A DNA stretch of 41,292 nucleotides, from contig JACTMU010000076.1 of the NCBI GenBank assembly GCA_014584465.1, positions 1 through 41,292 on the forward strand, read 5' to 3'. Below, piece by piece: positions 3,005-37,174 of this stretch. The DNA is from Pseudomonadota bacterium (GTDB lineage: Bacteria > Bdellovibrionota > Bdellovibrionia > Bdellovibrionales > JACTMU01). The stretch's first letter is position 1, and every line of letters starts with the position of its first letter. The notes beneath the pieces were generated by a model, which was not told the origin of the DNA, searched no databases, and saw only the letters and a list, made by a program, of their open reading frames with translations. A program made the translations under genes and the position numbers.

Positions 3005-3100
3005 TATAGATCTTAACGAAAAAATAATCACATTATTGATAAAAAAAGGCGTTGCGGCATCGCTTTTTTATATCAATAATGTGATTATTTTTTCGTTAAG
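3005..3100. mobile_element. Palindromic hairpin element, copy B (inverted)
   Basis: The arms at 3012-3041 and 3071-3100 are identical to those of copy A, and the 29-nt loop (3042-3070) is the exact reverse complement of the loop of copy A. The two elements are therefore the same 89-bp sequence in opposite orientation about 2 kb apart. The left side keeps TATAGATC as in copy A. The right side ends at CGTTAAG. The copy sits 66 bp downstream of the pilin operon stop, where its GC stem and flanking A/T tracts could serve as a bidirectional terminator. Confidence 0.85.
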
Positions 3101-6725: not shown

Positions 6726-6754
6726 TTGCATTCCCCTCTAGACAAAAATACTAT
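6726..6754 (+). promoter_or_regulatory. Candidate sigma70-type promoter upstream of the DUF1566 gene
   Basis: TTGCAT at 6726-6731 and TACTAT at 6749-6754 are separated by 17 bp, a good vegetative promoter spacing. The -10 overlaps the 7-bp target duplication of the adjacent MITE, so the element has inserted at the promoter's downstream edge. Confidence 0.4.
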
Positions 6755-6888
6755 ACTAGGGGCTGTCCGGTAATTCGCTTTTTGATCGATTTTGATAAGT
6801 TTTTCTTATACCGAGGCGGGCCGACGAAGGGCTAGCCAGAGGCGCTAACTCGAGGCAAAAATGGAATTACCGGACAGCCCCTATACTA
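6752..6888. mobile_element. 123-bp MITE-like element with 7-bp target duplication
   Basis: The element occupies 6759-6881. It has perfect 18-bp terminal inverted repeats (GGGGCTGTCCGGTAATTC at 6759-6776, reverse complement at 6864-6881) and is flanked by the direct repeat TATACTA at 6752-6758 and 6882-6888. The interior has no coding capacity. The GGGGCTGTCC-type ends and 7-bp duplication indicate mobilisation by a DDE transposase encoded elsewhere. The IS family cannot be assigned by eye. The internal segment 6795-6855 is 58/61 identical to 37046-37106 in another palindromic element. Confidence 0.85.
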
Positions 6889-32873: not shown

Positions 32874-32899
32874 AGTAAGGGTGCCAAGTAAGGGTGCCA
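32874..32899 (+). repeat. 13-bp exact tandem duplication after rpmG
   Basis: The 13-mer agtaagggtgcca occurs twice in succession at 32874-32886 and 32887-32899. The second copy runs into the left arm of the adjacent hairpin. Confidence 0.85.
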
Positions 32900-32949
32900 G
32901 GCGTATTTTTCGGATGCACAGCATCCGAAAAATACGCCTGGCACCCTTT
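32890..32949. terminator. 28-bp perfect hairpin between convergent genes (REP-like, bidirectional terminator)
   Basis: Perfect 28-bp arms (32890-32917 and 32921-32948, left arm starting AAGGGTGCCAGGCGTATTTT) flank a 3-nt loop ACA. The palindrome lies between rpmG and the convergent beta-CASP gene and ends on that gene's TAA. It can terminate both transcripts. The GGGTGCCAGGC/GCCTGGCACCC ends resemble dispersed REP-type repeats mobilised by TnpA-REP (RAYT) transposases. That is inference, since only this copy is present here. Confidence 0.75.
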
Positions 32950-36844: not shown

Positions 36845-36960
36845 TATAGCTCGTAACGAATCAAATACGACATATCTTATTTGTTCTTTTCGCTCAAATT
36901 CAATTTGAGCGAAAAATCCCTACGCAATAGATGTCGCATTTGATTCGTTACGGGGCTATA
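36845..36960. mobile_element. Nested palindromic element
   Basis: An outer imperfect inverted repeat (36845-36873 and 36931-36960, sharing CGTAACGAATCAAAT) encloses a second, perfect palindrome of 14-bp arms with a one-base centre (36887-36900 and 36902-36915, TTTTCGCTCAAATT). The ends read TATAGC and GCTATA. There is no coding capacity. It is a stem interrupted by unpaired bulges and a terminal hairpin when folded. It is most likely a small non-autonomous element. No target duplication can be defined with certainty. Confidence 0.65.
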
Positions 36961-37007: not shown

Positions 37008-37174
37008 TAGTGCTTGGCGCGAAACCTGCTTTCGAGTGAATTTGCATAAGTTTTTCTCATACCGAGGCGAGCCGACGAAGGGCTGGCCAGAGGCGCTAAC
37101 TCGAGGAGGCTCAACAAAGGTATAAGGAAAACTTATGACAAATTCACCGGAATGAGGTTTCGCGCCAAGCACTA
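37008..37174. mobile_element. 167-bp palindromic element carrying the 61-bp shared core
   Basis: The termini TAGTGCTTGGCGCGAAACCT and its reverse complement are perfect over 20 bp, and the inverted repeat continues imperfectly to about 55 bp on each side (37008-37062 and 37119-37174). The ends fall on TA, as in elements that insert at TA dinucleotides. The interior (37046-37106) is 58/61 identical to 6795-6855 in the MITE at 6759, yet the termini of the two elements are unrelated. It lies 47 bp from the nested palindrome, with a small GCTTGG-CAG-CCAAGC hairpin between them. Confidence 0.7.

Follow-up and report, generated by a model that had tools for sequence, protein, structure and literature searches.

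The question raised by this locus is why one short sequence should occupy the middle of two mobile elements whose ends appear to differ. The window, a contig of 41,292 nucleotides (JACTMU010000076.1) from a Pseudomonadota bacterium placed in the Bdellovibrionales, contains the two copies at 6795-6855 and 37046-37106. They are identical at 58 of 61 positions and share the same orientation, as the original prediction stated. The frames it described were also recovered: the first copy lies inside a 123-bp element with terminal inverted repeats (TIRs; 6759-6881, plus strand), and the second inside a 167-bp palindrome (37008-37174, plus strand). In the sequence, the first element is bordered by a 7-bp target-site duplication, TATACTA, at 6752-6758 and 6882-6888; none was seen around the second. 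Other repeats in the window include two 90-nt hairpin elements of a separate family (992-1084 and 3010-3100), which are exact inverted copies 1.9 kb apart, and a perfect 28-bp hairpin with a loop of 3 bases (32890-32948). Immediately upstream of the second element lies another imperfect palindrome, the third, some 100 bp long (36852-36952).

The core is far more abundant in the window genome (3.75 Mb in 120 contigs, the window being contig 4) than chance would allow, with at least 87 copies detected by a 36-mer at up to three mismatches and none of the reversed pattern. The two window elements represent two types, with 151 type-1 and 81 type-2 end sites in this genome and none for the controls. 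When full-length, both are palindromes of 166-167 bp running from TAG to CTA, and the core takes the same offset in each, starting at base 39 and ending near base 130. The limit of 61 bp originally given to the core did not hold, because the two types, when full-length, have about 92 bp in common, as far as CTTAT. The termini are likewise not unrelated, as had been supposed: TANNTA targets are common to both, and GTGGCTGGCGCG, a type-2 variant, agrees with the type-1 terminus GGGGCTGTCCGG at 8 of 12 positions. Exact TANNTA duplications flank 17 of 23 type-1 and 7 of 17 type-2 end pairs in the window genome. Both types thus show the terminal inverted repeats and target-site duplications by which MITEs are defined.

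Type-1 copies are nearly identical to one another and are therefore recent, whereas type-2 copies, at 90-96% identity, are older. One hybrid element (C97:27301) combines the left arm of type 2 with the right arm of type 1 within matching TAACTA duplications, which shows that arms are exchanged around the core. The autonomous partner was not found, since the six PF01609 (DDE_Tnp_1) matches in the window genome lack type-1 and type-2 TIRs. DDE_Tnp_1 was rejected as the partner transposase because of this mismatch, and no TANNTA-duplicating transposase was found among the same matches. The exact element patterns have no match in GTDB r220 contigs or IMG/VR. Palindromes of 15-17 bp, TAGTGCC(T/A)(G/A)GCACTA, with exact TANNTA duplications on their flanks, occur at two sites of the window genome (G000:C107:56323 and G000:C8:13375) and are perhaps leftovers of excised type-2 elements. 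Core-less type-2 derivatives of about 40 bp occur at C118:7541 and C52:31730. A further dispersed repeat of this genome, TGCGTCCAGCATTTGGAACCTGGCAC, is present in the downstream flanks of three loci (L021, L027 and L114).

The first window copy had been described as lacking a pairing arm that the second possesses. Intact type-1 copies carry this arm, and copy 1 instead breaks at base 6855, 99 bp from its TAG end, so that strand B and the 3' strand of the outer stem are lost at the junction 6855/6856. The apparent arm loss in type-1 elements is always on one side only, with the opposite side intact to about the centre. Where a copy has no private base, the break lies at 91-100 bp (51 ends; mode 95, with 24 ends), and several contigs terminate at 94-95 bp of the element. 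In 13 copies a private base (p) precedes the break by 60 bp or more; of these, the end falls at p+99 in eight, at p+100 in one and at p+101 in one, a tally that excludes ends crossing into the other type. The remaining private-base ends stop elsewhere, among them one at p+105 and four at shorter distances, the latter being crossings or copies with several changes. Such breakpoints are expected when repeats collapse with k=99 or 100-bp reads and poor gap closing. True one-sided deletions through hairpin cleavage or slippage were rejected as the origin of the short copies, because the break tracks the private base, which no biological process could know. By this breakpoint rule, the core's 3' edge at 6855 is very probably an assembly artefact, and so is the absence of an arm from copy 1.

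The core is not confined to the window genome. The first relative, a weak one in another family of the order (L090), carries this core inside a palindrome whose termini are different. A covariance model built from this locus and the local copies detected the core in 32 of 141 genomes searched in the order, and a second model, applied to the phylum, recovered it from 55 of 182 genera (89 of 369 genomes). Across the phylum it is found by itself between genes, and it also forms the apex of many palindromes with TIRs. Forty further loci present it in many terminal frames, at least seven of them, counted by eye, within the single genome G090; automatic clustering of termini gave 46, which overstates the diversity because end registers differ, and the frame count therefore relies on the eye. 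Two adjacent core hairpins share a single TIR frame at L285 and L329, and tandem core triples with 80-115-bp spacing occur at L295, L372 and L367. Six loci (L310, L312, L318, L320, L325 and L344) show a further conserved internal loop closer to the base, with GC-GMAGNGG-ATTTT on the left and AAAA-GACCAA-GC on the right. This loop is common to many frames and absent from the two types in the window.

The conserved part folds as S1 (free) - GA-G-GC - S2 - GA-C-GAA - S3 hairpin - GA-G-GA - S2' - AA-C-GAA - S1'. Strands A and B carry the same motif, 5'-GAGGn-[stem]-RACGAA, and thus form a two-fold-symmetric domain with tandem G.A mismatches, around which both the outer stem and the inner hairpin are variable. 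On the plus strand of the window, the 5' strand of S1 in copy 1 is CTTATACC (6805-6812, placed by homology with the R2 structure). It is followed by strand A, GAGGCGGGCCGACGAA (6813-6828, from alignments A4 and A5), and by the inner hairpin S3, formed by GGGCUAGC and GCUAACUC around a loop (6829-6851). The complete plus-strand series in copy 2 consists of the 5' strand of S1 (37056-37063), strand A, GAGGCGAGCCGACGAA (37064-37079), S3 (37080-37102), strand B, GAGGAGGCTCAACAAA (37103-37118), and the 3' strand of S1 (37119-37126). The arm originally assigned to this copy runs on to 37137 and further.

Pairing is maintained while the sequence changes. In a set of 20 diverse sequences, standard pairs fill 84.5% of pair cells, against 60% after shuffling and 23-40% in slid controls, and 110 cells show two-sided changes against 35 shuffled. 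Over 95 hits, two-sided cells number 554 against 172±13 shuffled (3.2-fold), and an isolated pair is C-G in 54 and G-C in 34, being paired in 97.8%; alignment A5 was fitted to the model, so its counts lean that way, and A4 was made with MAFFT without structure. Columns that are mostly G.A or A.G become Watson-Crick pairs in some sequences, and across the phylum the internal-loop motifs are kept while stems are swapped by compensation. We conclude that selection of the core as a folded structure is supported. The covariance-model check proposed with the original prediction thus returned many copies, diverse flanks and compensatory changes. Its central idea, a core that is under selection and travels in different mobile frames, agrees with the copy number, the phylum-wide spread, the frames within one genome and the covariation. 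A coding reading, based on similar reverse-strand peptides of two genomes and an indel of 3 bases, was dropped, because pairing covariation accounts for the pattern.

The two strands are not equivalent. Stem wobbles are G.T in 51 cases and A.C in 18 after removal of near-duplicates (p=9e-5), and 22 and 5 at 70% clustering. This excess shows that folding is maintained in the GA-rich strand. The bias is absent from the type-2 arms of the window genome, with 21 events of each kind.

Our best reading, to which we give a probability of about 0.45, is that the core is a REP-like single-strand hairpin module, probably processed by enzymes of the HUH/RAYT type, which TIR elements have captured at their apex. 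Its anatomy is well established; how it works we infer. The hairpin would form in single-stranded DNA exposed at replication, where an HUH transposase (Y1/RAYT-like) or some comparable protein that binds hairpins would recognise it. TIR elements would have captured this module or come to depend on it. In the window genome it rides on young type-1 and older type-2 elements, both moving as double-stranded TIR elements with TANNTA duplications. Near-identical copies were very probably mis-joined in assembly, giving copy 1 its arm-less appearance.

REP elements are intergenic hairpins near gene 3' ends that occur in tandem or inverted groups, some beside Y1/HUH genes, and a GTAG/CGTC tag is defining (PMC3733652). 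The core resembles this REP/RAYT system in being dispersed and extragenic, in lying near gene 3' ends and in occurring in tandem and inverted groups, and possibly also in the placement of a few copies beside Y1/HUH transposase genes. It differs in being longer (about 70 nt) and two-fold-symmetric with conserved tandem G.A loops, in having a stem sequence that is free to change, in being carried within TIR elements too, and in its polarity with respect to the replichores. The tag was not seen at the hairpin foot when the folded loci were inspected by eye, and for this reason we do not claim REP membership.

Of 140 genomes of the order, 112 encode Y1_Tnp proteins, namely 56 of the 60 with the core and 56 of the 80 others (odds ratio 6, p=6e-4), with genome size and descent as confounders. 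Two genomes, G034 and G003, contain cores and no Y1_Tnp match. At 5 of the 30 RAYT loci taken from four genomes, a core-type hairpin lies 85-330 bp past the stop codon, always in the sense orientation, and reversed controls gave none. These RAYT-linked hairpins represent about three independent lineages, and five of six have weak model scores (E from 5e-4 to 0.07).

The folded strand could instead be RNA: transcription of the GA-rich strand would yield an antisense RNA, a small RNA or an element in the 3' part of an mRNA, whose symmetric G.A domain would bind a protein. The strong covariation and the G.U-type wobble on one strand would suit this explanation, and tandem G.A motifs are common in RNA. 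The location is also compatible with it, as 33 of 35 loci lie outside any called ORF (ORFs called by length alone), and of 14 genes found no more than 20 bp from the core's 3' side, 13 have their stop codon next to the core. However, relative to the gene it abuts, the core reads antisense in 13 of 14 cases, and the 3' end of an mRNA would hold the complementary strand. No recurring gene neighbour was found beyond orthologous sites. Rfam 15 contains no matching family at gathering cut-offs, and permissive scans returned only long-hairpin miRNA precursors.

The distribution along chromosomes is also unexpected for an RNA. Of the 46 copies listed for ten single-contig genomes, 44 follow one pattern, lying on the minus strand if in the first half and on the plus strand if in the second (p=3e-11, not all being independent because the genomes share descent). 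The GC skew of the loci, +0.042 and -0.052 in the two halves, confirms that the halves are replichores. An eleventh genome, G065, shows the exact reverse in all five copies. Its GC skew shows that this contig is oriented the opposite way round, so that these five count with the rest, giving 49 of 51. This near-complete polarity, together with the reading direction relative to genes, fits folded single-stranded DNA better than RNA, and we consider the RNA explanation unlikely. We think that the element works as a folded single strand, with DNA favored over RNA, and the core is probably handled as folded single-stranded DNA.

The same polarity would be expected of a chromosome-architecture element, either a Chi- or KOPS-like signal or a site for a nucleoid or segregation protein, that TIR elements captured by chance. 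Known polar signals are short and dense, however, whereas about 5-13 copies of the core are listed per genome. In addition, its sequence outside small motifs is free while pairing is kept, which points to a fold and not to a double-stranded word. Neighboring copies in the window genome are unpolarized as well, 19 being in the same and 21 in opposite orientation, as expected of double-stranded TIR transposition. This missing polarity, like the missing wobble bias in the type-2 arms, also counts against our preferred reading. We therefore regard a chromosome-architecture role as distinctly unlikely.

A further explanation is a single old MITE lineage whose termini have diverged, with the core being an ordinary palindrome middle that has no role. 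The equal arm lengths and core offset of the two types, their common TANNTA targets, the partial match of their termini and the existence of hybrids are all in its favor. Beyond the window genome this explanation becomes hard to hold: in single-chromosome relatives the fold stands alone without such TIRs, elsewhere it occurs in tandem triples or twice per frame, and its internal-loop motifs are kept phylum-wide while the stems compensate. We judge it very improbable. Equally improbable is a nested mobile element inserting into different MITEs, as originally suggested, for although paired hairpins within one frame (L285, L329) and tandem triples (L295, L367) would suit it, every one of the 87 cores of the window genome belongs to an arm of type 1 or type 2 or to what is left of one, no empty site that lacked the core but kept both arms intact was seen apart from short derivatives, and no duplication was noticed at the core borders.

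Type 1 and type 2 resemble bacterial MITEs in being short, non-coding and of high copy number, with terminal inverted repeats and target duplications. They differ in that one folded core is common to many frames with differing termini, and in that the autonomous partner was not found. BOX-type repeats consist of modules joined in varying arrangements, much like the core and its arms, but here the folded apex is constant and the arms vary. The RAYT genes of single-chromosome relatives (L382-L411) are flanked by other inverted repeats, for example GGGGTATCGGTC and AGGTACGGACAC, in units that resemble TIRtrons and TIRYT repeats (PMC3733652); unlike in those systems, the core hairpin lies outside these inverted repeats in the observed cases. 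Among open papers, nothing relevant was found on hairpins in Bdellovibrio or on the sequence words of the element. We see an even chance that the core represents a previously undescribed class, a replication-polarized, single-strand-folding hairpin with a symmetric tandem G.A domain that is phylum-wide and serves as the interchangeable apex of many TIR families.

For draft short-read assemblies, the window shows how recent palindromic copies turn into false deletions, which can mislead readings of MITE evolution. For the phylum, one conserved fold links TIR elements moved as double strands with REP-like hairpins handled as single strands, which are usually treated apart. Because of the replichore polarity and of the wobble bias on one strand, it can be tested directly which strand folds and what reads it.
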